Assembly (NCBI GenBank): GCA_019634625.1
Contig: JAHCBA010000037.1
Span: forward strand, 1 to 64,000
Source of the DNA: Verrucomicrobiia bacterium
GTDB lineage: Bacteria > Verrucomicrobiota > Verrucomicrobiia > Limisphaerales > CAIMTB01
DNA: 64,000 nt
Direction of reading: 5' to 3'
The position numbers and the translations under genes were made by a program. Each line of letters starts with the position of its first letter. The stretch's first letter is position 1. Below, one piece after another: positions 5,317-44,714 of the stretch. A model generated the notes under the pieces. The model was not told the origin of the DNA, searched no databases, and saw only the letters and a program-made list of their open reading frames with translations.

Positions 5317-5533
5317 TGAGAGACCACAGAAAGTCTGAAACAGACCGAAGAAGGGGCTAAGCGCTTGAACGGAGGCGGCTTGGGCTGGGACGGAAACCCT
5401 TTTCAGACTTTTCCACAACAGGCGCTGTCGGGAGGGGGCATGAAAAGGGTCGTGCCACCCTTTTCGGAGGAGCCTTGGGCGGCGGCAGCGGGAGGGAGGT
5501 GCCAGGCCCTGGGCCCGACCGGTGGGAAGGCGG
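5317..5533. other. Prophage left end with transposase-site-like repeats
   Basis: No gene is seen here. GAAAGTCTGAAAC lies at 5329-5341, 12 bases inside the end, the same distance as GAAAGTTTGAAAA inside the right end. A longer copy in the other orientation (AACCCTTTTCAGACTTTTCC) is at 5395-5414. These are candidate binding sites for the MuA-like transposase. The early operon ends at 5534, pointing toward this end. Confidence 0.6.
5442..5465. repeat. Perfect 9-bp inverted repeat near the left end
   Basis: GAAAAGGGT-CGTGCC-ACCCTTTTC. The arm GAAAAGGGT is also the core of the end repeats (at 5395-5414, 44622-44634 and 44662-44702), so this is more likely a paired transposase site than a simple terminator. 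It also lies just past the stop of the last early gene and could fold in the transcript. Confidence 0.5.
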
Positions 5534-7586: not shown

Positions 7587-7588
7587 GA

Positions 7589-8077
7589 TCAGGATGGCAG
7601 GTACTCCCACAGCGCCGGCAGGGCGTTTCGGCCCGGGACACCTCGATGCACCAGCCGGACCCACCCCAGGCGCCACGCCTTGCGCACTGCAACACGAGCC
7701 GCTTCGAGGGATCCGTAGTGACAGGCCACATCCAGCACGGTGAACTGCCTCCTCCCTCCCAACGCTGCCCTGGCGATCTTCGCCCGCGCATCCTCCAGCC
7801 TCTGTGGGCTCCGACTCCTGGCCGCCCGCCGCCGCGCATCGACCAACATCTCCCTCGTCACCTCGGCTTTCGGTGGAGCCTCCGCACGAGCCTCCGCACG
7901 GACCTCCCTCGGCTGGAACATCACACTGTGAGTGCCCGACCGCCACTTGCCGGCATCAAACCCGCGCCTCTCCCTCCACCTGGCGAACGCGTTGGCGATG
8001 GCCCTTGCATCGCCCGGCCGAATGGCGGACACACAATGCTCAGGGCAGGGCTCGAAGGCCGGCTCCCGGACTCTCAT
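7589..8077 (-). CDS. Hypothetical early phage protein
   Basis: A 162-residue basic protein from ATG at 8075-8077, overlapping the upstream stop by ATGA. The C-terminal third (FTVLDVACHYGSLEAARVAVRKAWRLGWVRL) has helix-turn-helix spacing. The middle is Arg/Ala-rich and helical. No known family was recognised. Its tight packing marks it as part of the early operon. Confidence 0.6.
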   Translation of the reverse strand: MRVREPAFEPCPEHCVSAIRPGDARAIANAFARWRERRGFDAGKWRSGTHSVMFQPREVRAEARAEAPPKAEVTREMLVDARRRAARSRSPQRLEDARAKIARAALGGRRQFTVLDVACHYGSLEAARVAVRKAWRLGWVRLVHRGVPGRNALPALWEYLPS

Positions 8078-9039: not shown

Positions 9040-9455
9040 ATACGGCCCTCCCCAGACCCCGCCCACTCCACCTCCCCATCCCGCACCACCAGGGCCATCC
9101 GGCCCTCCCTCAAGCGCTGCCTCGACCCAGCCAGCGCCGGGTCGCACAGCACCGCCACCAGCGTGGACACCAACTCCTTCTCCACCGGGTCCAGCCCCGT
9201 CAGCGAGACGTGGACCGTACCCTCCCCCCGCCGATCCGAGGCCGCAGCCCGCACCGCCACCTCCCGGGTCATCACGTCCCGGCGCCACTCGAACCGCCGC
9301 CGGGCCGCCTCATTGGCGGCGCACGCCATGCCCAGCTCGCACCGCCGGATCTCGGCGGACAGCTCCGCCAGGCTCAGCCGCTCCGCCTTCGCCCGCACCA
9401 GCACCTCCTCGGGAGTCGGTGCCAGGGGATCCCTGTCCATCCTGGGCGTGCTCAT
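9036..9455 (-). CDS. Hypothetical early phage protein
   Basis: A 139-residue, helix-rich, Arg/Glu-rich protein from ATG 9453-9455, which overlaps the stop of the MuB-like gene (ATGA). The segment SLAELSAEIRRCELGMACAANEAARRRFEWRRD looks like a long helix, followed by a strand-rich C-terminus. No family was recognised. Confidence 0.58.
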   Translation of the reverse strand: MSTPRMDRDPLAPTPEEVLVRAKAERLSLAELSAEIRRCELGMACAANEAARRRFEWRRDVMTREVAVRAAASDRRGEGTVHVSLTGLDPVEKELVSTLVAVLCDPALAGSRQRLREGRMALVVRDGEVEWAGSGEGRI

Positions 9456-10603
9456 GGCCGCACCTCCCCATCCTCGAGGGTCATCTTCATCGCGAAGCCG
9501 TGCGCCCACACGAAGTCATCCCAGGCGATCGGCCGGCGCCGCTTGTGCGCCCGCTCGCTCGCGTCCTGCAGCAGCATCTTCACCGCCCCGAACCCATTTG
9601 CCTTCGCCTCCTCCAGGAGCACCCGTTCCGCATCCCCCGTCGCCGGCGGCAGTCCGAACGCCTCCGACATCAGGTCCAGATCCTCTCGCGGCGGCGACGA
9701 CGGCAGTTGCAGGATCATCGTCCGCGCCCGCCGGCGGAACTGCTCCAGGTACAGCGAGAACTCCCCCCGCCGGAGCTGGTCCCGCATCACATTCGTCCCC
9801 ACCAGCACCATCCCGCACCGGGTCTGGTCGTGAATGTACCGCAGCGTATCCAGGCACCGCATCACGCTCCCCCTCTGATACGTCGTGAACACCCGGTGAA
9901 TCTCATCGACGATCAACAGCTTCGAGCCGTCCAGCGCCTTGCACACGTTCGCCAGCAACTTGTCGAACCCAGCATGGCTCGGCACCATCAGCGCCTCGGC
10001 GATCGTCCGCAGCATGAGCTGCACCCCGCTCGCCGGAGGCATCTCCGCATACGTCGTCTGCCCGTGGTTGTTCCGGCGCTGCCGCTCGCGCACGCACTCC
10101 GACTTCCCGATCTGCGACGCTCCGAAGATCATCGCGATCTTCTGCCGTACGAATGCCCGCCGACAGATCGCATCCACCCATCGCCAGATCGACGTCTCGA
10201 TGAACCCCGTCTGCGTCACCGCCTGCCTGGCCTCCCACGTCGCCTTGTACCGGGCGATCGCCTGGCATTGATCCGTGACCGGCATCCGCTCCCCGGACCG
10301 CGCCTCACCTTCCGCGTACCGGTACTTGTCGCGGAAGATCCTCGACCAGGTCGTCGAGCTGTACCCGACCGCCGCGACCAGTTGATCCCAGGTCCATCGT
10401 TGTTCCCGGGCGTGATGGTGCAGCCAGCGCACCAGGAGCCGCTGATCCTCCGGCAGATGCTCGGTGGACTCGGTTACCGTGTGACCGCCGATGTTGATTC
10501 CCTCGAACACCTTCGCGCCATCCGGCGCCGGCCTGGGCCGCGGTTCCTCCGGCGGCTCCGCCACGGGCGTTCGGGCGGGGGACAGTACGATTCGATCCGA
10601 CAT
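9452..10603 (-). CDS. MuB-like AAA+ ATPase (transposition target activator)
   Basis: A 383-residue protein starting at ATG 10601-10603 behind AAGGAAA. Residues 55-95 form an N-terminal HTH-type segment (WDQLVAAVGYSSTTWSRIF), as in Mu B. The ATPase follows: Walker A GASQIGKS at 161-168, Walker B LLIVDEIHRV at about 229-238, and a sensor-1-like VLVGTN. MuB family proteins bind target DNA non-specifically and deliver it to the transposase. It lies directly after the transposase gene, as in Mu. The open frame continues far upstream inside the transposase gene, but that part is a shadow. Confidence 0.87.
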   Translation of the reverse strand: MSDRIVLSPARTPVAEPPEEPRPRPAPDGAKVFEGINIGGHTVTESTEHLPEDQRLLVRWLHHHAREQRWTWDQLVAAVGYSSTTWSRIFRDKYRYAEGEARSGERMPVTDQCQAIARYKATWEARQAVTQTGFIETSIWRWVDAICRRAFVRQKIAMIFGASQIGKSECVRERQRRNNHGQTTYAEMPPASGVQLMLRTIAEALMVPSHAGFDKLLANVCKALDGSKLLIVDEIHRVFTTYQRGSVMRCLDTLRYIHDQTRCGMVLVGTNVMRDQLRRGEFSLYLEQFRRRARTMILQLPSSPPREDLDLMSEAFGLPPATGDAERVLLEEAKANGFGAVKMLLQDASERAHKRRRPIAWDDFVWAHGFAMKMTLEDGEVRP

Positions 10604-10626
10604 ACGCTTTCCTTCGGTTGGGGGGT

Positions 10627-12585
10627 TCACATGAGTTCGGCGAGATCCTCCAGGCTCGCCGCGAATCCACCTCCGGCGCACCGCTCCCGCGGCACCGCCG
10701 GCTCGCCGGGATCCAGATCGGCGAGATCCTCCTCCGTCCGGGCCGGCGCCACCGTCCGGCCGGGAGCCGGCCGCGCGGCCGCCGGGCGTGAGCCAGCCTG
10801 CGGCCGGACCACCGCACCGCCCGCCTGGCCACGCTCCACGCGCCCGTGGCTGTCCTGCACCGACGCCGTGCGCAGCGTCGCCCCGATCGCCCGGAAGTTC
10901 CGCACCGCCGCGGCCGACGCCGCCTTGCGCACCGTGAAATCCGCCCGGCCGCTCAGATCCACCTGCGGCACCCACTCCGCCGCCGGCGCCACCAGGATCC
11001 GCTCCCCGCGCTTGAGCCCATCCCGGTTCCGCGGGCCCAGCTCCGCATTGAACACATGGCATCCCTCCTCCGGCCGCCCCGGATGGAAGGCCACCAGCAC
11101 CCGGCACCCATGGTCCAGGTGCGCTCCATCCACCCCGTTCACCACCCACCGGAACGGGCGCGGGTAATGCTTCAGCGTCACCTCCACATGCCCGCCCCGC
11201 ACCGTGGCCACCCGCTTCACCGGGCACAGCCGCCACGCCTCCCCGGGCGGCAGATCCGGCCCCCGCGCCCCGCGCAGCAGATCCACCGGCGCCACCAGCT
11301 CCCGCCCCAGGGCCGCCCGCCGCTTCGGCCGCGCGTTGAACCACTCCGACACCCGTTCCAACCCGTCGCCCGCCTCCGGCAACGTCCAGAACCGCTCGAT
11401 CTCCCCCCGGGTCACCGCCCGCGTCGCCTCCTCGAACTCCCCCCGCACCCGCCCGATCCCCAGCGCCTGGTGCGCCCCCATCGCCTGCACCAGGTTGAAA
11501 GCCCCCTCGATCCCGCCCTTCCCCTTGCTCTGGTGCGTATGCACCACCCGCACCAGCGGCGACAACCCGCCCCACCGCTCCTCCCGCGGCCAGCCCGGCA
11601 CCGCCGGCACGAACCCCTCGAAGAAGGACCCCGCCCAGATCTTCCCCATCTCCAGCCGCAGGATCGCCGGCATCCCGTGCGCCGCGAAGCTGTCCCGCAC
11701 ATGATCCGCCACATCCTCCGTCCGGTACGCATCCCGCGACCGCGCCACCTGCGTGAACCCCAGCAGCGCCGCCGAGTACACATCCTGCGTATAGAGCACC
11801 TGCCTCGTCAGGATCGGCTCGCCCGTGTCCGGATCCACCGAGGCCGCCGGCTCGTTGCAGCTCATGTCATCCATCTCCCACAGCGTGTGCGGCCCCATCG
11901 GCAGCCGGGCGCCCGATTCATCCACCCACTCCAGCGCCCGCCGCTCCGTCTGCTGCGTCGCCAGCGCCGCCTTGCGTCCCCGGAACAGCCCCGCCTCCTG
12001 CCGCGTCGGGTACGCCCCCCGCCGCCAACCCGCCGGCCACCGCGGCGCCCTTCGGCACGCCGCCGCCATGTCCAGCTCCGCCAGGATGAAGGCCCGCGTC
12101 TCCTCCCGGCACGCCGGGTGCCCCGCGAACTGCTCCACCGCCAGGAGGAACCGCGTCTGCCCCGTCCCCGTCCCCGTGCTCTTGGCCAGCACATGCCCGC
12201 GCAGCGCCAGCGCCTCCTCCTCCGTCAGCTCATGCACCGGCGCCCGCCCGCACCGGTCGTACTCGGGCGCCATCTCCACCGCCGAGAGCCCCTCCCGCCC
12301 CGCGCACTGGCGCACCAGGCGCGAGAGCGTGGCCACGCTCGTCCCCACCCGCCCCGCCACCGCCCGCATCGGCACCCCCGCCTCCAGCAGCGGCCTCGCC
12401 GCCAGGAGCAGGCGCATCCGCTCCGCCCCCCGCTCCAGCGCCGCCGAGGAAGCGTGCGGCCCCCATCCCGATGGTGTGCCACCCGGCAGAGTGCCGCATG
12501 CCGGGGGCGACTGGGAAGCTACCGCACCAGGCGCTTGCGCGGCGTGCGCCTCGTGAGGGTGGGGATTGGGGGAGAATCGATCCAT
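10627..12585 (-). CDS. MuA-like DDE transposase
   Basis: A 652-residue protein. An N-terminal HTH (residues 60-92, RVGTSVATLSRLV) is followed by a linker and the RNase-H-like core. The first catalytic Asp is in WEMDDMS (D239/D240), the last Glu in KGGIEGAFN (E360). At the second position the usual D-N-G is replaced by LRLEMGKIW (E312). Downstream is a Mu-type beta-barrel domain (about 430-560) and a Pro/Ala-rich tail that may contact MuB. It should bind the end repeats, join the ends and strand-transfer, both in integration and replication. Spacing from the ParB-like gene is 20 bases. Confidence 0.87.
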   Translation of the reverse strand: MDRFSPNPHPHEAHAAQAPGAVASQSPPACGTLPGGTPSGWGPHASSAALERGAERMRLLLAARPLLEAGVPMRAVAGRVGTSVATLSRLVRQCAGREGLSAVEMAPEYDRCGRAPVHELTEEEALALRGHVLAKSTGTGTGQTRFLLAVEQFAGHPACREETRAFILAELDMAAACRRAPRWPAGWRRGAYPTRQEAGLFRGRKAALATQQTERRALEWVDESGARLPMGPHTLWEMDDMSCNEPAASVDPDTGEPILTRQVLYTQDVYSAALLGFTQVARSRDAYRTEDVADHVRDSFAAHGMPAILRLEMGKIWAGSFFEGFVPAVPGWPREERWGGLSPLVRVVHTHQSKGKGGIEGAFNLVQAMGAHQALGIGRVRGEFEEATRAVTRGEIERFWTLPEAGDGLERVSEWFNARPKRRAALGRELVAPVDLLRGARGPDLPPGEAWRLCPVKRVATVRGGHVEVTLKHYPRPFRWVVNGVDGAHLDHGCRVLVAFHPGRPEEGCHVFNAELGPRNRDGLKRGERILVAPAAEWVPQVDLSGRADFTVRKAASAAAVRNFRAIGATLRTASVQDSHGRVERGQAGGAVVRPQAGSRPAAARPAPGRTVAPARTEEDLADLDPGEPAVPRERCAGGGFAASLEDLAELM

Positions 12586-20511: not shown

Positions 20512-21912
20512 ATGCCACGCCGTCGCACCCCATCGGACCCGGCCCCAGCGGCCAGCCCCATGGGCATGCTGCTGCCGTACCAGCGCCGGTGGGTCAACGA
20601 CGCCGCGCGCTTCAAGATCGGCCTGATGGCCAGGCAGACCGGCAAGAGCTGGATCAACGGGCTGGAGGCCGTGCGCGACTGCCTGGAGCGCAAAACGAAC
20701 TGGGTGTGCCTCTCCGCGGGCGAGCGCCAGGCCCTGGAGTGGATGCTCAAGGCGCGCGAGCATGCCGAGGCCTTCCAGGTCGCCCTCGCCGGGTACGAGG
20801 AGGACCGGGGCGGCAAGGGAAGCGAAGCCCTGCTCAAAGCCGCCGAGATCCGCTGGCCCAATGGATCCCGTCTCCTCGCCATCCCCGCCAATCCCGACAC
20901 CGCCCGCGGTTACAGCGCCAACCTCCTCCTCGACGAGTTCGCCTTCCATGAGGATCCCGACCGGATCTGGAGGGCCATCTACCCCTCGATCAGCAACCCG
21001 CTCAAAGGCGTGTACCGGCTCCGGGTGGTCAGCACTCCCAATGGCCAGGGCAACAAGTTCAGCGACCTCTGGCACAAGGCCGAAGGCTGGTCGCGCCACA
21101 AGGTCACCATCCACGACGCCGTGGCCCAGGGGCTCCCGCTCGACATCGAGGAACTGCGCCGCGGCCTCGACGACCCGGAAGGCTGGGCGCAGGAGTACGA
21201 ATGCGAGTTCATCGATGGCGCGGCGATCCTCCTGCCCTATGAACTCATCGCCCGGTGCGAGAGCCCGGAGGCGGCCCTGACGCAGCCTTCGGAGTTCTGG
21301 GACGGGCCGTCCCGCGAGATCTACCTCGGCATCGACTTCGGCCGGAAGCGCGACATCACCGTCTGCTGGACCCTCGAACGACTGGGCGACGTGTTCCACA
21401 CCCGCGAAGTGCTCGAACTGCGCGGGGTGGACACCCCGACGCAGGTGGAGGTCCTGTCACCCCGCATCCGACAGGCCCGCCGGGTCTGCCTCGACTACAC
21501 GGGTCCAGGCGTCGGGTTGGGCGACTACCTGGCGAAGGAGTTCGGAGCCTACGATCCGAAGGCGCACCTCTTCGGCCGCGTCGAACTCCTCACCTTCACC
21601 AACCCCTCGAAGGTCGAGACGTTCAGCAAGCTCCGGATGGCCTTCGAAGGGCTGAAGCTGCGGGTGCCGGTCTCGCGCGAGGTGCGGGAAGACCTGCACT
21701 CCGTGCATCGCGTGGCCATGAAGGGCGGAGGCGTGACCTACCGGGCTCCGCACACGGCCGATGGCCACGCCGACCGGGCCACCGCCCTGGCCCTGGCCCT
21801 GCGCGCGGCCGGCACCGGCGGGGCCGGAGCCATCACGCCCGAAACCCTCGCCGCCATCGCCGTGCCGCATCCGCGCCTGGCCCGGGACATCCTGCCAGCC
21901 CACGCCCTATGA
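20512..21912 (+). CDS. Terminase large subunit (Mu gp28-like)
   Basis: A 466-residue packaging motor. Walker A-type MARQTGKSW at residues 39-47, Walker B LLLDEFAFHED at about 138-148, a coupling-motif-like VVSTPNGQGNKF, and the nuclease start LGIDFGRKRDITV near residue 272 with further acidic residues around VCLDYTGPG and DGHADRATALALAL. It cuts and packages DNA into the prohead. It begins 13 bases after the DUF3486 gene. The frame is open far upstream, but ATG 20512 is the first start outside the preceding gene. Confidence 0.9.
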   Translation: MPRRRTPSDPAPAASPMGMLLPYQRRWVNDAARFKIGLMARQTGKSWINGLEAVRDCLERKTNWVCLSAGERQALEWMLKAREHAEAFQVALAGYEEDRGGKGSEALLKAAEIRWPNGSRLLAIPANPDTARGYSANLLLDEFAFHEDPDRIWRAIYPSISNPLKGVYRLRVVSTPNGQGNKFSDLWHKAEGWSRHKVTIHDAVAQGLPLDIEELRRGLDDPEGWAQEYECEFIDGAAILLPYELIARCESPEAALTQPSEFWDGPSREIYLGIDFGRKRDITVCWTLERLGDVFHTREVLELRGVDTPTQVEVLSPRIRQARRVCLDYTGPGVGLGDYLAKEFGAYDPKAHLFGRVELLTFTNPSKVETFSKLRMAFEGLKLRVPVSREVREDLHSVHRVAMKGGGVTYRAPHTADGHADRATALALALRAAGTGGAGAITPETLAAIAVPHPRLARDILPAHAL

Positions 21913-26240: not shown

Positions 26241-28304
26241 ATGCCAGCCGAGAGCCGCCCCCAGTCCGCCCTGCCGATCCATGCCAAGAGCATGGCCACG
26301 GCACTGCCTGACCGCCCGCCCGAGAGCATCATGTGGATGCCCGGAGGCGTGCATCAGATCGTGGCGATGCGTGGTGGGCGGCCCCTGAAAGTCCGCGTGG
26401 CGGTCACACCCGACACCGCCATCATCGCCCAGCGCGCCCTCGACCAGTACCTCTCCGCAGGACGTCAGCGCCCCTACTTCGACTTCGACCACGAGGGCGG
26501 CAAGGCATGCGCGTGGCCAACCTCCTTCCAATGGAGGAACACTCCGGAACCCGGCGTGTATGCGAGCGTGTCCTGGTCCAAGGACGGTGCCGAAGCCATC
26601 ACCGGCCGATCCTACCGGGCCTTCAGCCCGGCCTTCTTCGTCGATGACGCCCGTCCCGCCCGCGTCACCGGCGCCCCACTCAACATGGGCGGCCTCGTCA
26701 ACGATCCGGCCTTCCGCGCCATTCAACCGCTCTGGGCCAAGTCTCCCCAACCCCACATGGACAAGACCAAGCAACTGCTCGCCGTGCTATCGGCGATCAA
26801 GACCCTCCAGGCCGAACGCGGCGCCATCGCTGCCAAGGCCGACCCCAACGACGCCGCGGCCCTCCAGGCCAGGGATGCCGAGATCCAGGCCCGGTTTGCC
26901 GAAGCCGCCCGGATCGAGGCCGAGATCCAGGCCGCCTCCACCGATCCCGGCGATGAGGACGAAGCATCCCTGCACGTCCACGACGCCACCCAGGCCCTCA
27001 AGGCCAAGGACGCCGAGATCGCCGCCCTCAAGGCGGCTCGCGACCAGGCCGAAGCCGAACTCAAGATCCGCCGCAGGAGCGAGGCGGAGGCCGCCGTTCA
27101 GGCCGCCGTCGCCCGGGGCGCCCTGCCGCCCCAGGCGAAGGAGCTCCACGCGAAGTGGCAGGAATCCATCGAGCGCGATCCCGGCAACGCCGCGCTCCTG
27201 GCCGGACTCCAGGCTGCGAACCCCGTGCTGGCCGGCCGCATGACCCCGCGCGATCCCGGCACCGGCCAGATCCAGGCCGTCACCGAGGACATCGCCCATG
27301 CGGTCAAAGCGTACCACGCCGCCTCCACGCCGACCCAACGGGGCATCCTCTTCAACCGGGACATCAATGACCGCTTCGACCGCGAGTACGAGCGCGTGAT
27401 CACCGCCGCCAACGCGCTGGGCACGCTTGCGGGCGACCTGGTCGTCCAGCGCTCGCTCGTGCTGCTCAAGCTGACCTTCCCGGTCCTCACGCGCATCTCG
27501 ACCGACTTCTCTTCGGAAAACGCGGACTTCAACCAGACCGTCAAGACCCGCATCCGCGTGGTGCCCGCGGTGACCGACTACAACACCACCACCGGCTACG
27601 CACCCAGCGATGCCACCACCACGGACGTCCCGGTCACCATCACCGCGCACAAGGCGGTGCAGATCGGATTCAATGCGAACGAGCTGGCCAGCACCCGGCG
27701 GGCATTGTTCGACGAGCAGGTGGAACCTATCCACTACGCGCTCGGCAAGAACCTCTGCGACGCGCTCTTCGGCCTCATCCTCGCCGCCAACTACACCAAC
27801 GCCACCACCAAGGCGCTGGCGTCCTTCGCCCGCGCGGATGTCACCGCCATGGCCAAGGCCCTCTATGATCGCGGCGTGCCGGACATGGGGCGGACCCTCC
27901 TGCTCAACAGCGCCTACTTCGAAAAGCTCCAGCAGGACGCCACCATCGTGAACCTCGCCGCCTACCAGCGGCCCGAGGTCATCACCCGCTACACCCTGCC
28001 GCCCATCGCCGGGTTCGATGTCTTCCAGGCGGTCAACCTGATCACCACCGGCAATCTCACCGGCTTTGGCTTCACCCCGGACGCCATGGCCATGGCCACC
28101 CGCGTGCCCAACGACTACACCCAGGCCCTGCCGGGCGCCTCGCACGGCTCGGTCGGCGTGGTCACCAATCCCGACACCGGGATGACCGTCTCCGTCGTCC
28201 AGTACGTGGACCACAAGCTGGGCGCCAGCTTCCTGCGCATGGCCCTCATGTACGGCGTCGCCGTCGGCCAGGCCCCCAGCGGCCAGCGCCTCATCAGCGC
28301 CTGA
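26241..28304 (+). CDS. Fused prohead protease, scaffold and major capsid protein
   Basis: A 687-residue protein. Residues ~30-170 match the Mu I protease domain (PYFDFDHEGGKACAW, VYASVSWSKDGAEAITGRSYRAFSPAFF, NDPAFRAIQPLWA), with His in FDHEG and Ser in SYRAFSP as candidate active residues. Residues ~173-310 are a coiled-coil scaffold (LQARDAEIQARFAEAARIEAEIQ). Residues ~345-687 are the major head subunit (Mu T-like: FNRDINDRFDREYERVI, LLKLTFPVLTRISTDFS, VQIGFNANELASTRRALF). In Mu these are separate genes. Proteolysis would release the capsid. Confidence 0.86.
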   Translation: MPAESRPQSALPIHAKSMATALPDRPPESIMWMPGGVHQIVAMRGGRPLKVRVAVTPDTAIIAQRALDQYLSAGRQRPYFDFDHEGGKACAWPTSFQWRNTPEPGVYASVSWSKDGAEAITGRSYRAFSPAFFVDDARPARVTGAPLNMGGLVNDPAFRAIQPLWAKSPQPHMDKTKQLLAVLSAIKTLQAERGAIAAKADPNDAAALQARDAEIQARFAEAARIEAEIQAASTDPGDEDEASLHVHDATQALKAKDAEIAALKAARDQAEAELKIRRRSEAEAAVQAAVARGALPPQAKELHAKWQESIERDPGNAALLAGLQAANPVLAGRMTPRDPGTGQIQAVTEDIAHAVKAYHAASTPTQRGILFNRDINDRFDREYERVITAANALGTLAGDLVVQRSLVLLKLTFPVLTRISTDFSSENADFNQTVKTRIRVVPAVTDYNTTTGYAPSDATTTDVPVTITAHKAVQIGFNANELASTRRALFDEQVEPIHYALGKNLCDALFGLILAANYTNATTKALASFARADVTAMAKALYDRGVPDMGRTLLLNSAYFEKLQQDATIVNLAAYQRPEVITRYTLPPIAGFDVFQAVNLITTGNLTGFGFTPDAMAMATRVPNDYTQALPGASHGSVGVVTNPDTGMTVSVVQYVDHKLGASFLRMALMYGVAVGQAPSGQRLISA

Positions 28305-33120: not shown

Positions 33121-35400
33121 ATGCCGCTGGTGCTTTCCAGAGTGCGAGGCGATGCCGCCGGGCACAGCTTGGGCCGCGCGTCTGCATTGGGTGCGTCAGG
33201 GTCCGGGTCCACCCTCAATCCGGGCCACATCGCCGCGATCGCCACCACGGTGGATGGGCGATTGGGCACCGGGGAAGCAGCGTCCGCATGGACTCATGCC
33301 CAGGCGCTGGTCACAGGCATGGGCTACCAGGAGGGGCCCGCCTCAATTCTCGGGCCGTTCGTCTGCAACCTGCTGGCATTTTGGACCGCGAGGGGTGGAG
33401 TGGTCACCTACACGGCTGATGGCACATCGGGCGGCAGCGCCCTTGTCCATTCCCCGTTGGAAACATGGTGGCGCATGGGCCGGCGCAACGAGGTGTTGAT
33501 CACCAATGCCAGCGGCTCTGCCAAGGCTCCCTCCTACGAGTTCACAGACCCTCTCACGACCGCCAGCGCGACCGCGTCCCTGATCTACGGCCAGACCGTC
33601 TATCACACCATCACGCCCTACGTGGTGTTCCGGAGTTCGGCGCCCCAGATCCCGTCCAACATCAAGGTCGAGATCAAGGCCGGGGCAACCGAAGGCACGT
33701 CATCGTGGACCACTCTGTTCGACGCAGCCCCAACGGTCTGGAAGGGGATCTGGAGGGGGCCTGTCTGGCGGTTTGGCAGCGGGGCACACGCGGTCTTCGG
33801 CCTGCGCTACACGTTCACTCTGCCGGACTCGGCCAATGCCTATGAGTTCCTCGAAGTGGGGCTGGCCTCCAACCTCGGCGTGCCCGGCGCGTTGCTCTAC
33901 GCCTCGCCATGGCGCGCCAACAACTGGAACTTCACTCAGGCATTCCTTGCCGCCACGCCGTTCACTGTGAGCGCGACCGCGCTCATCGCCAACCTCAATG
34001 CAGATCTCCTGGACGGGCTCCACGCCAGCGATTTCGTCGCGGTCACGGGCAATCAGACCATCGGGGGCACCAAGACTTTCTCCTCCGACATCCTGGTCAA
34101 CAGCTCGGGCACTCAGACGGTCTATCACACCGGCAATCTCCCGCAGAACCGTCTGGTGCCACCTGGAGGCACCACCGGTCAGGCGCTGACCAAGTCAAGC
34201 TCCAGCGACTACGCCGTCGCATGGAGCAGCGTCGCCGCCGAAACCGCCAATCGATGGGCCACCGCCCGCACCATCACCCTGGGCACCGATCTCACGGGCA
34301 ACACCAGCATCGATGGATCGGCCAACGTCACCCTCAACGCCACCATCGCCAACGGGGCCGTGACTTTGGCCAAGATGGCCAACATCGCCACCGCCCGGCT
34401 CCTCGGCCGCGTCAGCGCCGGCTCCGGCGTGGTCGAAGAACTGACCGCCGCCCAGGTCAAGACCCTCCTGGCCATCGGCATCGCCGACGTCTCCGGCCTC
34501 CAGACCGCCCTCGACGGCAAGGCGGCCGTCAGCCACACACACTCCGCAGCCGACATCACCAGCGGCACCCTGGCCTCCGCCCGCCTCTCCGGCTCCTACA
34601 CCGGCATCACCGCTGTCGGCTCTCTCTCGTCCCTCACCGTCGGCGGAACCACATCCCTCACAGGCGCCGTCAGCGCATCCAACCTCGGCACGGACCTCTC
34701 CTCCGGAGCCGGCTACAAGCTGCTCATGCGGGCCGACAGCGGCTACGGCATCCGAGCCATCACCCTCAGTGGAGTCAAAGGGTACCTCGACTTCCAGATC
34801 GCCGACATTCCCGGCCTCCAGACCGCCCTGGATGCCAAGGCTCCGACCAGCCGTAGCATCGCCACGCAGCACAGCCTCCAGGGTGGAGGCAACCTCACCG
34901 CAGACCGGACCCTCAGCCTGGTGGGCGACAGCGCCAGCCCGGGCAACTCGAAGTACTACGGCACGAACAGTGGCGGCACCCGGGGCTACCACGACCTGCC
35001 CACCGGCCAGAATGTCATCGCCGCAGCCCGCTTCCAAATCCACACCCCTGACGACGACTCCGTCTCACTCGTCCAAAGCGGCGACAGTGGTTCCAACCGC
35101 TTCGATCCAACGACCGGGTCGGGCCAGCTCTACTTCACCCGGGGCGGCGTGGTGCGGGATCCGGTCGTGTACGAGTACCACTTCAGCAACCCCGGATCCG
35201 CCGCGTGGTACGCCGTCATCACACCCTCCCGCGAATCCTACACCGGCGGCACCTACAACGCCCCCACCAATGCCCTCGCCCCGGCCGTCCTTCGCGACAG
35301 CTCCTCCAACACTGAGTGCCACTTCTCGCTTGGCAGCCCGTTCGATGGCGAATGGGACTACGTCCCCAAGTGGATCGACATCGTGATTCTCAAGGCATGA
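33121..35400 (+). CDS. Tail fibre protein B
   Basis: A 759-residue fibre, paralogous in part to fibre A. Its globular domain (ILGPFVCNLLAFWTARGGVV, YHTITPYVVFRSSAPQIPSNIKVEIKAGA) aligns with that of fibre A but near the N-terminus instead of the middle; the shaft repeat (34261-34522) follows, then SLSSLTVGGTTSLTGAVSA-type repeats and a C-terminal tip (YNAPTNALAPAVLRDSSS). It overlaps the next gene by ATGA. Likely a second receptor-binding protein. Confidence 0.75.
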   Translation: MPLVLSRVRGDAAGHSLGRASALGASGSGSTLNPGHIAAIATTVDGRLGTGEAASAWTHAQALVTGMGYQEGPASILGPFVCNLLAFWTARGGVVTYTADGTSGGSALVHSPLETWWRMGRRNEVLITNASGSAKAPSYEFTDPLTTASATASLIYGQTVYHTITPYVVFRSSAPQIPSNIKVEIKAGATEGTSSWTTLFDAAPTVWKGIWRGPVWRFGSGAHAVFGLRYTFTLPDSANAYEFLEVGLASNLGVPGALLYASPWRANNWNFTQAFLAATPFTVSATALIANLNADLLDGLHASDFVAVTGNQTIGGTKTFSSDILVNSSGTQTVYHTGNLPQNRLVPPGGTTGQALTKSSSSDYAVAWSSVAAETANRWATARTITLGTDLTGNTSIDGSANVTLNATIANGAVTLAKMANIATARLLGRVSAGSGVVEELTAAQVKTLLAIGIADVSGLQTALDGKAAVSHTHSAADITSGTLASARLSGSYTGITAVGSLSSLTVGGTTSLTGAVSASNLGTDLSSGAGYKLLMRADSGYGIRAITLSGVKGYLDFQIADIPGLQTALDAKAPTSRSIATQHSLQGGGNLTADRTLSLVGDSASPGNSKYYGTNSGGTRGYHDLPTGQNVIAAARFQIHTPDDDSVSLVQSGDSGSNRFDPTTGSGQLYFTRGGVVRDPVVYEYHFSNPGSAAWYAVITPSRESYTGGTYNAPTNALAPAVLRDSSSNTECHFSLGSPFDGEWDYVPKWIDIVILKA
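34261..34522 (+). repeat. Fibre-gene direct repeat, copy 2
   Basis: Near-identical to 30801-31062 (three mismatches in 262 bases), offset 3,460 bp, in the same orientation and reading frame. The flanking DNA of the two fibre genes is much less similar, so the repeat marks recent exchange or duplication. Confidence 0.85.
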
Positions 35401-35600
35401 CCCCAATGAAAGACACACTGGAACAACTCAAGTCCGAGTTCTCGGCTGACATCGAGACCCTCGAGAAGCAACTCGCCGAAGCCCGATCCCAGGTGGCCCG
35501 CGGCGAACAACAGATCCTCCTCCATCGCGGTGCCGTGCTCGGCCTCGAACGGGCGCTGCAACGCATCCCTACGGAGGAGGCCAAAGACCAACCCGAATGA
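35397..35600 (+). CDS. Small coiled-coil protein
   Basis: 67 codons from ATG 35397 (ATGA overlap with fibre B; ATG 35406 is the alternative). The whole protein is one heptad-patterned coil (KDTLEQLKSEFSADIETLEK, QLAEARSQVARGEQQIL). It sits immediately before the lipoprotein gene; a spanin or lysis accessory role is possible but it lacks a clear membrane helix. Confidence 0.55.
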   Translation: MTPMKDTLEQLKSEFSADIETLEKQLAEARSQVARGEQQILLHRGAVLGLERALQRIPTEEAKDQPE

Positions 35601-35884
35601 AAAAACTGATCCAAACCATCGTGCTGGCTTGCGCCAGCGTCACACTGCTCACCGGCTGCGCCCTGTTCCGCGACGGCGAGACGAAGACAACCACCTGCAC
35701 GACTGCCGCCGCCGCATTGGCGGCCTACCAGGCGGTCGTCGCAGCCGGTCAGTCTCCCAGCCCGGCTCAGATCCAGGCCGCGGCAGGGGCCGCCGCCTTC
35801 CTCACCGCCTGGTGCGGATGGTCCGACACCCGCGGGATCGATCCCAACGGAGTCCCCATCATCCTCCCGCCAGCCGCCCAGTGA
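35597..35884 (+). CDS. Small lipoprotein (spanin-type candidate)
   Basis: A 95-residue protein with a classical lipoprotein signal: basic start MKKLIQT, hydrophobic core and lipobox LTGC (Cys 20). The mature part is Ala/Pro-rich with a Cys pair. Position after a coiled-coil gene in the late region recalls outer-membrane spanin subunits, but it could also be a surface-exclusion lipoprotein. It overlaps its neighbours at both ends. Confidence 0.62.
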   Translation: MKKLIQTIVLACASVTLLTGCALFRDGETKTTTCTTAAAALAAYQAVVAAGQSPSPAQIQAAAGAAAFLTAWCGWSDTRGIDPNGVPIILPPAAQ

Positions 35885-36690
35885 AGAGGCAGCCCCAGGG
35901 CATCTCACTCCACGTCGGCCTCAACCGGGTCGATCCGGAACACTACGCCGGTTGGTCCGGCGAGCTGCGCGGCTGCCACGCTGATGCGGGGGCCATGGCC
36001 GCCATTGCCAAGGTGCGCGGGTACGACCCGCACCGGCTGCTCCTGGACGACCAGGCCACGGTGGAGGCCGTGCGGACCCTGTTCCGCACGGCCTCCTCCT
36101 TGCTCGAGAAGGGCGACACGCTGCTCTTCACCTTCGCCGGCCACGGCGGGCAGGTGCCGGATCTCGACGGCGACGAGTCCGATGCCATGGATGAAACGCT
36201 CTGCCTGTGGGACCGCCAGTGGGTGGACGACGAGATCCATGCCGAGATCGCCCGATTCCGGCCCGGCGTCCGCATCCTGATCATCGCCGACAGTTGTCAC
36301 TCAGGCACAGTGGCACGTTCCGCGCGCGATGAGGGCGAGAAGGGATACCGGCTGCTCCCGCCGGGGCGATCACGCGCCTGCTATCGCCAGCACCGGGCCA
36401 CCTACGATGCCATCCAGCGCGGCACTCCTGGGGTCGATGCATCCCGAGTGCGAGCCACGGCAATCCTCCTGGCTGCGTGCCAGGACAACCAGCTCGCCGC
36501 CGACGGCCCTGACGGCGGGCTTTTTACGGCCACCCTCCGCCAAGTGTGGAGGGGCGGGCGCTGGAAGGGGGCAACCTGGCGCTTTCGCGATGCCATCGCG
36601 CAGCGCATGCCTCCCTGGCAGACCCCTCACTACTACGTCGTCGGCCACGGCGACCCGAAGTTCGAAGCCCAGCCTCCATTCACGATATGA
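35881..36690 (+). CDS. Caspase-like (metacaspase, peptidase C14) protein
   Basis: A 269-residue protein from GTG 35881, overlapping the lipoprotein stop (GTGA). The caspase p20 features are complete: N-terminal strand ISLHVGLN, LRGCHADAGAMAAIAK, catalytic His in LLFTFAGHGGQ (H88), and catalytic Cys in ILIIADSCHSGT (C139). An acidic loop (DLDGDESDAMDETL) sits between them, as in type I metacaspases that bind calcium. No pro-domain or partner domain is seen and no signal peptide, so it acts in the cytoplasm or in the virion. It could function in lysis timing, virion maturation or host killing. Confidence 0.8.
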   Translation: MKRQPQGISLHVGLNRVDPEHYAGWSGELRGCHADAGAMAAIAKVRGYDPHRLLLDDQATVEAVRTLFRTASSLLEKGDTLLFTFAGHGGQVPDLDGDESDAMDETLCLWDRQWVDDEIHAEIARFRPGVRILIIADSCHSGTVARSARDEGEKGYRLLPPGRSRACYRQHRATYDAIQRGTPGVDASRVRATAILLAACQDNQLAADGPDGGLFTATLRQVWRGGRWKGATWRFRDAIAQRMPPWQTPHYYVVGHGDPKFEAQPPFTI

Positions 36691-37079
36691 TCACCCCGCG
36701 GAAGGTCCATCGGATCAACAACCCAGTCTTCCTCATTGGCCTGGCGAGCCTCATTGCCGCCGCGCAGTTCCCCCCTCCCGTGCCTGTGGACCCCATCCCG
36801 ATCCGGCTCGGATGGGACTACCCCACCAACGAACTCAGCACCAATCTCTGGTTCCATCTCTACAGCCACACCAACCCTGCGGCCCCCTTGTCTCAATGGA
36901 CCATCGAGACATCTGTCGTGGGCACATCCACCACGGTTCGGATCGCTCCAACACCCGGCCACCGCTTCTACGTCGTCACCGCCAGCAACCTCTGGGGTGA
37001 ATCCCGCCCTTCGGAGCCCTACGCGACGCCATTCCCTCCTCGCGTGGGGCGCCACCTGACCGCCGCGAGGGAAGACTGA
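36687..37079 (+). CDS. Membrane-anchored or exported FN3-like protein
   Basis: A 130-residue protein from ATG 36687 (ATGA overlap). A hydrophobic N-terminal segment (NPVFLIGLASLIAAAQF) is followed by a fibronectin-III-like pattern: IRLGWDYP, LWFHLYSHTN, WTIETSVVGTSTTVRI and the typical final strand YVVTASNLWGESRPSEP. It may be a virion decoration or surface protein. Confidence 0.6.
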   Translation: MITPRKVHRINNPVFLIGLASLIAAAQFPPPVPVDPIPIRLGWDYPTNELSTNLWFHLYSHTNPAAPLSQWTIETSVVGTSTTVRIAPTPGHRFYVVTASNLWGESRPSEPYATPFPPRVGRHLTAARED

Positions 37080-37085
37080 CTAGCC

Positions 37086-37514
37086 ATGAACCCGATTGAA
37101 CCCAGCCCATCCGGCCCCACATCCCAGGAAATCCTGGATGGGGGTATCAACATCCATCTTGCCCCCGACCAGGCGGTCTTCGTGCGTCTGGTGCCCGTCC
37201 GTCTCTACACGGACATGCTCGGCGCCCTTGGTGACGAAGCGCGCCTCATCGCCATCTACACTGATCTGCCGGAGGATCGGATCGGCAACCTCACCCCTCC
37301 CCAGTGGGAGCGCATCGTCGAGGAAGGCGACCGGCTGAACCGGGATTTTTTCGCGCGCTGGGTGGCCCGCCGCATCGCCCGGCAGGAACGCGTCATGCCG
37401 GGCATCGGCGAGCAGATCCGGACGGCTGTCTCGCTCGCTGTCTCGCAGGCGTCTGCCTCGCCACCGGATGGACCCGTGGCCAATGCCTCGACGAATCCCT
37501 CGCCTGGCTCCTGA
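37086..37514 (+). CDS. Tail assembly chaperone (Mu gp41-like position)
   Basis: A 142-residue protein just before the tape measure. The N-terminal half (INIHLAPDQAVFVRLVPVRLYTDMLGAL) is strand-rich and the rest helical (PPQWERIVEEGDRLNRDFFARWVARRIARQERVMPG). Its last ~30 codons lose coding character while the -1 frame gains it, as in lambda G/GT-type chaperones made by frameshifting. A TTTTTTC slip site is at 37346-37352. Confidence 0.62.
   Translation: MNPIEPSPSGPTSQEILDGGINIHLAPDQAVFVRLVPVRLYTDMLGALGDEARLIAIYTDLPEDRIGNLTPPQWERIVEEGDRLNRDFFARWVARRIARQERVMPGIGEQIRTAVSLAVSQASASPPDGPVANASTNPSPGS
37346..37352 (+). promoter_or_regulatory. Candidate -1 frameshift site T TTT TTC
   Basis: Codons GAT TTT TTC of the chaperone gene give the canonical X XXY YYZ heptamer. 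A -1 slip here would enter the open frame that runs to 37669. The coding bias, however, changes frame only about 80 bases later, so the real shift point may be elsewhere. Confidence 0.35.
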
Positions 37515-37669
37515 TGGTCCTGAGCGAACACCGTCGCGCCACGGCCTGGGCCGCTCTCCTGAGGGGCGGCGTCCACCACGTGGCCACCGCCGCCACCGTG
37601 AGTGTCGAAGGCGGGCGCGCATGGCAGCGGCTCGCTGACCGGCTCCGGCGACAATCCGAGGAACTGTGA
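37514..37669 (+). CDS. Second chaperone frame (GT-like)
   Basis: 51 codons from ATG 37514, overlapping the previous stop by one base (VLSEHRRATAWAALLRGG..., RAWQRLADRLRRQSEEL). The same frame is open back to 37304 and shows coding-type third positions from about 37432, so it may be translated mainly as a frameshift extension of the upstream protein. It overlaps the tape-measure start (GTGA). Confidence 0.5.
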   Translation: MVLSEHRRATAWAALLRGGVHHVATAATVSVEGGRAWQRLADRLRRQSEEL

Positions 37670-39417
37670 GCACCCCGGTCGAGATCCGAATCCGAGCCGA
37701 TGCGGCCCAGGCCAACGCGGCGCTCGGCACCGTTCGGGGTTCCCTCACCTCCCTGGGCCGCACTGCCGCCGTGGCCGCGGCCGCCATCGGCGCCGCCACC
37801 GTGGCCATGGGAGCCGCTCTCACTGCCGGACTCCAGGCAGGAGTCCGCGCCTCCCTGGCATACGCAGACGCCATGGCCAAGGTGTCCCAGCGCACCGGCA
37901 TTGCGACCGAGGACCTCAGCGGCCTCGGGCATGCAGCCAAGCTGGCCGGCGTCTCCATGGAGCAGCTCGGGGTCTCCCTGCGCGGCATGACCCGATGGAT
38001 GGAGCAGACCGGCCAGCTCGGTCGGCCAGTCATCGAAGTCCTCGAGGAACAGGCGGAACTCTTCGCCCGCATGCCCGATGGCGCCGAGAAGGTGGCCCTG
38101 GCCATGGAGCGCTTCGGCCGGGCCGGCGAATCCCTCATCCCTCTACTCAACCAGGGATCCGCCGGAATCCGCATGGCGACCCGCGAGGCGCAGCAGCTTG
38201 GACTGATCGTCAGGAACGATACCGCCAAGGCCGCCGAACTCTTCAACGACAACCTCACCCGCCTGCGTGGCGCGGCAACGGGATTCGCCCTGCGCATCAC
38301 CGAGCATCTCCTGCCATCCCTCACCACGCTCTCCCAATCCCTCCTCGCCTTCGCCACCACGCAGGAAACTTCCAGCCGGATCTGGAAGGCCCTCGAACTC
38401 GGCATCGGTCTCGTCGTCGCCCGCATCGAGTCGTTCATCGCCGGACTCCGATGGATTTCCACGTTCACCGCCACGTTCGTGGACTCCATGGTCGAGACCG
38501 GGCAGATCACCAACTCGACATCGAAAGCCTTCGATGAAGCGGGCAAGGCCGTCGATCGCTACAGGCAGGCGCTGGTCGATTTGATCAAACAGCAGGGGCA
38601 GCGTCCCCCGGTCCCCTCGCCACTTGGTGCCGGCGGCGACGATCCAAAGGACCTGACCGTCACCGCCAGGTTCCCACCCTCTTACATCCTGGCAGTCCGG
38701 GATGCGCACGAACTCTTCCGAGATTCCTACGACCACACCGCGACACTGGGCGAAGCGGCCATGGCGGGCTGGCAGGAATCCATGATCCAGCTCGGCACCA
38801 TCGCCGAGAACGTCGGGCGCACCATCTCGAACACCATCGGCACCGCGATCTCATCGATCTCCTCCGGCATCACCGGCCTCGTCACGGGGACGCTCACCTG
38901 GGGGCAGGCCCTGCGCCAGATCGGCACCAGCATTCTCAACCAGGTCATCGATGGCGTGGTGAGGATGTTCTTCGCCTGGATGACCCAGCGCAAAGCCGCC
39001 GCAGCCGTCGAGGTGTCCGCCAGCGCCACCGAGACCGCCGCGAAGGCGCCGAGCGCGCTCCTGACATCCATCAAGACCCTCGGCATCGCCGCGGCCGTCG
39101 GCGCTGCCGCCTTCCTCGCCGCCATGGCCATCACCGGAGGCTTCCAGGCCGGCGGTTACACCGGTGACGGCCCACCGGGTCAGGTTGCGGGTGTGGTCCA
39201 TCGGGGCGAATTCGTTGTGCCCGCCCCGGCCGTCGAGAGGATTGGCATCGATTCCCTCCACGCAATGGTCGCCGGCAACCACCAGCCCGCCTCCGGACCA
39301 TCCGGCCCCGCGTCGTCCCCCAGGCTGTTCCTCTTTCTGGACCGGCACGAACTGGCCGCCGCCCTCCAGGACGACATCGAGGCACAGGTCATCCAGGTCC
39401 TCCGGAGGCACGCGTGA
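37666..39417 (+). CDS. Tail tape measure protein
   Basis: A 583-residue protein from GTG 37666. A short N-terminal domain (STPVEIRIRADAAQANAALGTV) is followed by alternating hydrophobic Ala/Gly helices and coils (TAAVAAAAIGAATVAMGAALTAGLQ; YADAMAKVSQRTGIATEDLSGLGHAAKLAG) and a C-terminal membrane-active part (TLGIAAAVGAAAFLAAMAITGGFQAGGYTGDGPPGQVAGVVHRGEFVVPA). The VHRGEFVVPAPAVERIG end is a hallmark. It sets tail length (short, about 80-90 nm by the usual residue-length relation) and probably helps DNA entry. Confidence 0.85.
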   Translation: MSTPVEIRIRADAAQANAALGTVRGSLTSLGRTAAVAAAAIGAATVAMGAALTAGLQAGVRASLAYADAMAKVSQRTGIATEDLSGLGHAAKLAGVSMEQLGVSLRGMTRWMEQTGQLGRPVIEVLEEQAELFARMPDGAEKVALAMERFGRAGESLIPLLNQGSAGIRMATREAQQLGLIVRNDTAKAAELFNDNLTRLRGAATGFALRITEHLLPSLTTLSQSLLAFATTQETSSRIWKALELGIGLVVARIESFIAGLRWISTFTATFVDSMVETGQITNSTSKAFDEAGKAVDRYRQALVDLIKQQGQRPPVPSPLGAGGDDPKDLTVTARFPPSYILAVRDAHELFRDSYDHTATLGEAAMAGWQESMIQLGTIAENVGRTISNTIGTAISSISSGITGLVTGTLTWGQALRQIGTSILNQVIDGVVRMFFAWMTQRKAAAAVEVSASATETAAKAPSALLTSIKTLGIAAAVGAAAFLAAMAITGGFQAGGYTGDGPPGQVAGVVHRGEFVVPAPAVERIGIDSLHAMVAGNHQPASGPSGPASSPRLFLFLDRHELAAALQDDIEAQVIQVLRRHA

Positions 39418-41450
39418 TCCCAGTCCACCACGCCGGGCTGGATGCCTTCCTAGTCACCACGGGGCCATCATGGCAGTCGCCCGTGATCACCCGTGTCGCG
39501 GTGCCGACACGCCGCCACCGTTCCCTCATGGGCAGGGAATCCCGCAGGGCAAGAGGTCAAAGTCTCCGGTTCCAGATCCGCTGGCAGGCCACCCTCCAGG
39601 GGCGCGACGCCATCCACGCGCTCACCGAGGCCATCCGCACCGTCCACGATGAACCGCTCCTGGTCCCGTGCTGGCCCATGGCGATGCAAGGCCCAAGCTG
39701 GCACCTGGCGCCGTGGACTGCCGCCACGCTCGTCGCATGGAGCGACGACTGGCAGAACTACACCCTCTCCTCCCACCCCATCGCCGATCCGTCCGCATGG
39801 GACTGGGTGGCCCCGGTCCTGCGCTGCCGCCTGGGCCGTCACGAAATCCATCTCCTCACTCCCGATCTCGCGGAAATCGACTTCGAGGTGGAGGAGGACA
39901 GCACCGCGGCCGATGCCATCCTCCTCGCCGATGCCGACTGGACCGACGGGCCCACACTGCCCGATGACCACGTACCGAAAGTCTTCCCGTTCGCTGTGGA
40001 CTGGTCCGAACGGGTCCGCGCTGGCGCCGCCGCCCCTGAAGCCCAACGCATCCCGCTCGGCGACGGCCGACTCTCGGCATCGATCGTGTATCCCCAGACA
40101 GGGGAACGGATCGTCGAGGGCTCCATTACCGTGACCAGCGTCCTGGGCGCATGGGAACTCCTGCGGTGGTGGGCCGACCAGTCTGCGGAGGCCCATTTCC
40201 TCGCCTCGATCGCCGAAAGGGCCCGACTGGCGGCCGACGCCGAGGAAGGTGGGGACACGCTCCAGCTCGCCGCCCCCTGGGCAGGCGCTGCCCCTCAGTG
40301 GATTGCCCTGATTGATCCCGATGGACACGAAATCGCCGCCGTCGATTCCGTCGATGGCGCCACTTTCCACCTGACCGCGCCGCTCTCCCGAGGCTGGGAC
40401 CGCGCCAGCGCTTTCATCGGCGTGGCACTGCTCGCCCGGCACGCCGCCGATTCACTCGAGATCTCCTGGATCGAGCCCCGTGTTGCCCGGGCCGAAGTGC
40501 GCTGGCGCGAAGTGCCTCCCGAGTACGATCCGCCTTCTGGCGAAGCCCGCGGCGTGACCCTCGGACGCGTCGCCTCCCGGGCATGGCTCTACGAAGTGGA
40601 GGTCGATTGGCATGGGGCCGGCGAAATCCATCGATGGACGAGCTGGGAAGGCGACGTCACCGCAGGCGGGCACACCTGGGCTGCCATCCCGATCGAACAC
40701 GGAGAGATCCGCCAAACCCTCAGCCTCGATCGCGATGAACTGACCCTGCGAACCCGATGGGACCCTTCGGGGCCATGGCGCCTGTGGCTGCCGGGCACCC
40801 TCGATGCCCGGGTCTCCCTGCGCATCCTCCACTCCGAGGTGGAGGGCGGCATCGGCTCGACACCGGACCAGGTGTGGGGCGGGGAAATCACCGGCGTGGC
40901 TTTCGACGGCCCCATGGTCAGCGCGAAGGCCGCCGGAGCCAACGCCCTGTTCGGCCGCAAGACCCCGCGCATCCTGATGCAGCCCGGCTGCAATCATGCC
41001 CTGTTCGATCCCCTCTGTGGGCTCGACCGCTCGGCATGGCAGTTCAGCGCCGAGGTCGTGGAGTCCGATGGACATCAAGTGACCCTCGATTCGTTCTCGC
41101 GCACGGGAGGACTCCCGGATCCGTGGGGTGGCGAAGGATACTTCGCCCTGGGCATCTTCGAACGTACCGCAGTCGGGCGTCCCGAGCGGGCATCGATCTG
41201 GGCCAGCAGCTCCAAACTGGACCCGGGCGGCGGCAACTACCGGATCACCCTCACGCTCGGTCGCATCCCCCCCACACCCATGCCTCCGGGCACCTCCGTC
41301 CTGGTGTGGCCTGGATGCGATGGCCTCAGGGATACCTGCGTCAGCAAGTTTTCCAACTTCCAGCGGTTCGGCGGCTTCCCATTCATCCCGGACCGCCTGC
41401 CCCAATTCACCCCCGAACGGCGATCCAACTCCAACATCGGCAAGAAATGA
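39414..41450 (+). CDS. Distal tail protein with BR0599/DUF2163-type C-terminus
   Basis: A 678-residue protein from ATG 39414. The N-terminal ~230 residues are beta-rich (Dit-like); the C-terminal ~280 residues carry the BR0599/DUF2163 features (EVDWHGAGEIHRWTSWEGDVTAGGHTWAAIPIEHGEI, MQPGCNHALFDPLCGLDRSAW, VWPGCDGLRDTCVSKFSNFQRFGGFPFIPD). In gene transfer agents and related siphophages these parts are separate genes 12/13; here they seem fused. They connect tail tube and tip. Confidence 0.78.
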   Translation: MIPVHHAGLDAFLVTTGPSWQSPVITRVAVPTRRHRSLMGRESRRARGQSLRFQIRWQATLQGRDAIHALTEAIRTVHDEPLLVPCWPMAMQGPSWHLAPWTAATLVAWSDDWQNYTLSSHPIADPSAWDWVAPVLRCRLGRHEIHLLTPDLAEIDFEVEEDSTAADAILLADADWTDGPTLPDDHVPKVFPFAVDWSERVRAGAAAPEAQRIPLGDGRLSASIVYPQTGERIVEGSITVTSVLGAWELLRWWADQSAEAHFLASIAERARLAADAEEGGDTLQLAAPWAGAAPQWIALIDPDGHEIAAVDSVDGATFHLTAPLSRGWDRASAFIGVALLARHAADSLEISWIEPRVARAEVRWREVPPEYDPPSGEARGVTLGRVASRAWLYEVEVDWHGAGEIHRWTSWEGDVTAGGHTWAAIPIEHGEIRQTLSLDRDELTLRTRWDPSGPWRLWLPGTLDARVSLRILHSEVEGGIGSTPDQVWGGEITGVAFDGPMVSAKAAGANALFGRKTPRILMQPGCNHALFDPLCGLDRSAWQFSAEVVESDGHQVTLDSFSRTGGLPDPWGGEGYFALGIFERTAVGRPERASIWASSSKLDPGGGNYRITLTLGRIPPTPMPPGTSVLVWPGCDGLRDTCVSKFSNFQRFGGFPFIPDRLPQFTPERRSNSNIGKK

Positions 41451-44625: not shown

Positions 44626-44714
44626 AAAGGGTTGCGGTCGGTCGCAGTGGGCCAGCGGCTTCAACCCTTTTCAAACTTTCTTCCAACCCTTTTCAAACTT
44701 TCGGCGCGCTTACA
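44626..44714. other. Prophage right end with tandem transposase-site-like repeats
   Basis: Two direct copies of CAACCCTTTTCAAACTTTC lie at 44662-44680 and 44684-44702, spaced by 22 bp, about two helical turns. A third partial copy in the other orientation (CTGAAAAGGGTTGC) overlaps the stop of the tip gene at 44622-44635. The element ends TTACA at 44714. Reading inward from the end, GAAAGTTTGAAAAGGG begins 12 bases in, as at the left end. Confidence 0.7.

Follow-up and report, generated by a model that had tools for sequence, protein, structure and literature searches.

Caspase-like proteases of bacteria have been studied as enzymes of cell death and immunity. Among described systems, the closest relative of known structure of the protein analysed here is GSU0716 of Geobacter sulfurreducens (PDB entry 3bij), a bacterial protein on whose function or activity the literature searched gave no data; the only paper found to name it deals with a wheat metacaspase. 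Other points of comparison are the type I metacaspases, such as yeast Yca1 and T. brucei MCA2 (TbMCA2), the latter with published S1-pocket and Ca2+-site residues (PMC4357240), and the cyanobacterial orthocaspases (MaOC1), which are prokaryotic C14 peptidases too and are described as p10-less and calcium-independent (PMC5756287). Virus-encoded proteins of the C14 fold include the metacaspases of the giant viruses Fadolivirus, Clandestinovirus and Medusavirus, all of them viruses of eukaryotes.

The protein discussed below is encoded in a 64,000-nucleotide stretch of a contig from a Verrucomicrobiia bacterium (JAHCBA010000037.1, positions 1 to 64,000), which we call the window, and its gene belongs to the late operon of a Mu-like prophage. 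The enzyme type is already known from a structure; what is new is its presence in phages, which is nearly unrecorded. No published description of a phage caspase of the GSU0716 type was found in the literature searched, which excluded subscription papers and preprints.

Identity and predicted catalytic properties

The gene is an intact open reading frame at 35881..36690 on the forward strand, with a GTG start and a product of 269 aa. The frame is open further 5', with an alternative GTG at 35530; homologue alignments start at residues 4-6 counted from the GTG at 35881. A preliminary description of this DNA had read the product as a caspase-like peptidase with a complete His/Cys dyad, and this identification stands. 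The protein carries both FAGHGGQ and ADSCHSG and matches Pfam PF00656 (Peptidase_C14) with an E-value of 2.3e-19 and 70.5 bits (cut-off 21.4). A sequence search of the PDB returned 3bij over residues 5-269 (E 1e-75), far ahead of the yeast and plant metacaspases. An AlphaFold2 model built from 19 sequences (pLDDT 90.8, pTM 0.90) has a single disordered stretch, at 143-152, immediately past the catalytic cysteine; in Foldseek it matches 3bij with a TM of 0.91 and metacaspases with TM values of about 0.6-0.75, and caspases and MALT1 are also matched. The window protein thus has both C14 profile membership and the caspase fold, and the agreement of profile, full-length homology and fold rules out a chance motif match. 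A PHROG search with the protein gave no match, and the NCBIfam family 'caspase, EACC1-associated' scored 26.5 bits, below its curated cut-off of 140 bits.

The catalytic dyad is His88/Cys139, aligned with Yca1 and 3bij. Loss of the dyad in relatives had been named beforehand as a potential refutation; both residues are kept in 18 of the 19 aligned sequences, the copy in another Mu-like prophage included. The exception is a GSU0716-type copy on the chromosome of another genome (G050, L027:9532-10341), where the cysteine is lost and ADTGSN stands in place of ADSCHSG; by its sequence this copy is probably a pseudo-enzyme.

The protein shares with GSU0716 collinear full-length homology (46% identity in the structural alignment), a stand-alone p20+p10-like architecture, the dyad, the CQDNQ motif and an acidic loop, the last also noted in the preliminary description. 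With the tree, in which GSU0716-type proteins form one clade (support 100/99), this places it in the GSU0716 type, as a metacaspase-like C14 peptidase. It differs from GSU0716 in a post-Cys loop that is about 12 residues shorter, and in its setting in a phage late operon.

Residues were mapped by a phmmer alignment with Yca1 and the published TbMCA2 sites (PMC4357240). In the S1 pocket, Asp35 and Asp137 do not vary and correspond to Yca1 positions equivalent to those of the S1 site in TbMCA2; Cys32 is also kept, and a serine is replaced by Ala86. At the metacaspase Ca2+ site, Asp104, Asp116 and Asp117 match three of the four ligands, while the fourth position is Arg146, which is basic in nearly all of the family, so that the four-Asp site of type I-like metacaspases is incomplete. 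Past the p20 part lies a p10-like half with the motif CQDNQLAADG (residues 200-209), nearly invariant in the alignment and of the DNQ/SAD type expected of type I-like metacaspases. The likeness to Yca1 and MCA2 extends to the fold (Foldseek TM 0.58-0.63), but the window protein has no N-terminal prodomain and only about 18% identity with them. A p10-less orthocaspase of the MaOC1 kind is ruled out, since the p10-like half is present in both sequence and model.

Because the dyad, the two S1 aspartates and three of the four Ca2+-site aspartates are present, the window caspase is predicted, by what is established for metacaspases, to cleave after Arg/Lys, in keeping with its acidic S1 pocket. The same pocket speaks against an Asp-specific true caspase, and Asp-directed cleavage, which the preliminary description had allowed for, is unlikely. 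Control by calcium is plausible but uncertain, because of Arg146 at the fourth ligand position and because p10-less orthocaspases are calcium-independent. Identity and catalytic competence are well supported by these features, from which we infer peptidase activity itself.

The prophage and its late operon

The element that carries the gene is a prophage of about 39.3 kb with the hallmarks of Mu-like transposable phages. It encodes a MuB-like ATPase and a transposase on the reverse strand (9452-10603 and 10627-12417, together 9452..12417) and, on the forward strand, a terminase large subunit (20560..21912) and, of the Mu-type head genes, a head-maturation protease fused to the major head protein (26241..28304); a portal protein is encoded as well. 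A 17-bp repeat in three exact copies (5395, 44663 and 44685) bounds the prophage; chance would give 0.02 copies when up to three mismatches are allowed. The left-edge copy (5395..5411, forward strand), AACCCTTTTCAGACTTT, is a probable transposase-binding end, and the right edge (44663..44701, forward strand) holds two copies of AACCCTTTTCAAACTTT. No clean target-site duplication was found; the only candidate, GCGGCT at 5381/44654, would leave the right repeats outside the element. Chromosomal genes flank the element, among them prepilin-type ORFs that appear to be of Verrucomicrobia-like kind.

The caspase gene lies among tail genes, all on the forward strand. A tail-fibre-like gene (33142..35400) is followed by a gene for a 67-aa predicted coiled-coil protein (35397..35600), which had no confident family match in Pfam or PHROG scans and overlaps its neighbours on both sides by 4 bp; by the 95-aa lipoprotein gene (35597..35884), whose product has a signal sequence and the lipobox LLTGC; by the caspase gene; and by a gene for a 130-aa exported FN3-like protein (36687..37079). 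Downstream lie a tail assembly chaperone-like gene (37086..37514) and the genes for the tape-measure protein (37666..39417) and the baseplate hub protein (39414..41450; PF09931, PF09356). The overlaps reported earlier at the two ends of the caspase gene, GTGA (35881-35884) and ATGA (36687-36690), are real and 4 bp each, and the four small genes are coupled by 4-bp overlaps to one another and to the tail-fibre gene. The upstream lipoprotein is likewise borne out; the downstream protein has a hydrophobic segment at its N-terminus, and for its FN3-like character the support comes from short exported relatives and not from Pfam.

No promoter-like site was seen in the caspase region, and no terminator-like site on its coding strand. 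For this reason, and because of the coupling by 4-bp overlaps, late expression of the caspase together with the tail genes is the natural reading of the arrangement. The structural and transposition genes around it and the 17-bp end repeats substantiate the late-phage location first proposed, and the late operon and end repeats rule out a chromosomal gene outside the phage. The stretch 35397-37079 is an accessory insert, because in a sister phage (L233) the chaperone gene directly follows the fibre gene and the module is absent there. Next to the caspase lies a lipoprotein gene, but neither an endolysin nor a holin was recognised among the phage genes scanned, a set without about twenty of the small genes.

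The lipoprotein that adjoins the caspase has a relative (38% identical) in a virus-like contig that is otherwise unrelated (L115, G086:C276), where it adjoins a transmembrane/coiled-coil gene. This contig encodes many small membrane proteins and a P-loop ATPase and looks like a tailless provirus, in which the relative takes a spanin-like position. Searches for the lipoprotein in phages and IMG/VR yielded nothing useful. In another viral contig (L215:6881-7650), a caspase gene likewise lies beside genes for exported FN3-like proteins and is preceded by a large fibre-like gene, an arrangement like that of the window.

Distribution and capture by phages

Of 50,697 annotated phage records, a single one, that of an uncultured 485-kb phage, holds a caspase homologue. 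Structural matches in BFVD at E <= 0.001 came exclusively from viruses of eukaryotes and never from phage; the giant-virus metacaspases are among them (best E 5e-15), with 10-26% identity to the window protein. Alignment-based scans of IMG/VR added about 35 viral contigs with a caspase; a scan with the window caspase as a single protein was unproductive.

The host genome has no second C14 match. A strong caspase match occurs in 20 of the 320 genomes of the same order that were searched, the window's own included, and most of these copies are chromosomal and 46-54% identical to the window caspase; the copies of the same genus (G002, G003) adjoin a MoxR-type operon. Further bacterial copies were found in Streptomyces, Novosphingobium, Chitinophaga and others. 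In three loci of Chitinophagales (L019-L021) the caspase is the N-terminal domain of proteins of about 870 aa with a second caspase protein adjacent, an arrangement that suggests a two-caspase system.

Phage members stand at several places in the tree, with eight changes of the phage label, of which at least three are forced. The nearest neighbours of the window copy are chromosomal copies from its own order, a placement that lacks firm support; three viral copies (L119, L206 and L207) form a phage-only clade (support 100/98). Capture by phages is recurrent, and the window gene was probably taken by a Mu-like phage from bacterial chromosomes.

Lysis context, proposed role and rival explanations

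By eye, the caspase gene of several viral relatives stands in a lysis cassette, and family checks then identified its neighbours. It directly follows an M15_4 peptidase gene (L207), an NlpC-like lysozyme gene (L119) or a gene for an NlpC/P60 protein with a peptidoglycan-binding domain (L232); it is overlapped by a PGRP-type amidase gene (L221); and a GH24 lysozyme gene lies less than 400 bp upstream of it, with an SNase gene between (L206). When four endolysin families were sought in 35 viral caspase records, 11 records had a detection (8 above the curated cut-off). An endolysin lay within 600 bp of the caspase in four of the 11, against 0.44 expected (P 0.0006), with P-values of 0.002 at 1 kb and 0.012 at 2 kb; in the remaining seven, the majority, the distance was 7-327 kb. 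The adjacency had been noticed by eye beforehand, which makes the test partly post hoc; in addition, a single clade (L119/L206/L207) supplies three of the four adjacent cases, and counting it once gives P 0.09. Endolysin adjacency of viral caspases thus exceeds chance (4 of 11 records against 0.6 expected) at P of about 0.002, or 0.09 when the clade is collapsed. The family tally over all viral caspases shows mixed neighbours (ParB-like, RusA, methyltransferase, SSB, portal), and the idea of a lysis role is tempered for this reason.

A second line of evidence comes from related Mu-like prophages and contigs found by terminase-based searches. One of these, a sister prophage (G021:C336, L029; terminase 82% identical), has a divergent caspase gene flanked by a membrane/lipoprotein gene and a small transmembrane coiled-coil gene preceding the terminase genes. 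This caspase keeps the dyad but is only 32% identical to the window protein and has neither the Ca2+-site aspartates nor the CQDNQ motif. In L164 that slot is occupied by an Amidase_3 endolysin, in L140 and L143 by a protein called NlpC-like by eye, for which a PDB search gave no clear answer, and in about ten other Mu-like relatives by a class-3 lipase (Lipase_3), three of them Pfam-confirmed. Because an amidase, NlpC-like proteins, lipases and one caspase alternate there, the pre-terminase slot is probably a lysis position with exchangeable hydrolases. The window caspase lies outside it, between tail fibre and chaperone. Mu-like prophages of the window's order often have a lipase in the slot; such loci include L092:18124-18894, L109:13647-14516, L096:2935-3690 and similar ones.

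We propose that the caspase is a competent metacaspase-like protease, made late, that aids lysis and the dismantling of the host cell, and give this reading a probability of roughly 40%. A cytoplasmic GSU0716-type peptidase, captured from bacterial chromosomes into the late operon of a Mu-like phage, would be synthesised late in infection together with the tail proteins and would stay largely inactive while cytoplasmic calcium is low. Breach of the membrane at lysis would let calcium enter and switch the enzyme on, perhaps aided by self-cleavage at basic residues of the disordered loop past Cys139, and the active caspase would then cut host proteins after Arg/Lys and speed the dismantling of the cell. 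The preliminary description had offered control of lysis, processing of virion proteins and countering of host defence as possible roles, and these are supported only in part; it had recognised neither the GSU0716 type of the enzyme, nor the Mu-like nature of the phage, nor the rarity of phage copies. For lysis the support is circumstantial, from phage relatives beside endolysins, and the window phage has no recognised endolysin adjacent. More tentative is the generalisation that GSU0716-type metacaspases have been enlisted by phages time and again as lysis effectors, which are released by calcium and trade places in one slot with endolysins and lipases.

The coiled-coil, lipoprotein, caspase and FN3-like genes could instead be a cargo (moron) module that benefits the lysogen or the phage apart from lysis, for example in handling damaged proteins or excluding other phages. 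This possible but doubtful account agrees with the absence of the module from the fibre-chaperone junction of the sister phage, with the varied neighbours of viral caspases and with the differing position of the gene in the window phage and G021; the lack of a recognisable promoter of its own and the translational coupling to tail genes, however, argue for late rather than lysogenic expression. It is less probable still, though the chromosomal copies of the same order are 47-54% identical and the window branch lies near them (unsupported) in the tree, that the gene is a passive hitch-hiker, recently captured and without phage function: at about 50% divergence every catalytic residue is still in place, both ends of the gene overlap its neighbours within a compact operon, and at least three phage-label changes are forced by the tree.

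Anti-defence genes are unusual at a late position, and this, with the absence of an adjacent defence gene in the window, makes it unlikely that the protein is a late protease that destroys a host immune protein, or a decoy related to bacterial caspase effectors. A PADLOC caspase model does match part of the protein (E 1e-10), and beside a different viral caspase lies a gene whose product matches the Acb2/Tad1 hairpin family; the similarity to defence caspases is weak and incomplete, covering 18-156 of the 453 positions of profile PDLC02987, and the neighbours are tail genes and not the partners of that system. The gene's translational coupling and its place between the tail-fibre and chaperone genes would also suit a virion protein or virion-processing protease, carried in or acting on tail or fibre. 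Yet the phage has its own head-maturation protease, sister phages do without the caspase, among them one with the same tail genes, and homologues occur in many non-tail contexts and on bacterial chromosomes, so a virion role is quite improbable.

If the proposed lysis role is true, phage lysis would include regulated host proteolysis beyond membrane holes and wall cutting, and the phage enzyme would be an 'executioner' caspase, opposite in purpose to the caspases that bacteria use in immunity. A bacterial metacaspase role would then be testable in the simple setting of an induced prophage. The occurrence of lipases and patatins within or close to phage lysis slots points to a larger toolkit of lysis-associated hydrolases.

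Patatin-like phospholipase genes lie next to or near the caspase gene in three viral contigs (L210:2880-4815, L225:6908-8795, L218:5520-8663), in the last of which the caspase itself has a lipoprotein-type signal. Among the neighbours of viral caspases (alignment A4), the match to the Acb2/Tad1 hairpin family is to an anti-CBASS family, and another neighbour matches an ADP-ribosyltransferase exoenzyme family. A DUF1353 protein, for which the PHROG label 'tail chaperone' is doubtful, is encoded in the window at 7128-7610, near a caspase in another contig (L117:6959-7594) and, judged by eye, within L125 in its lysis slot.
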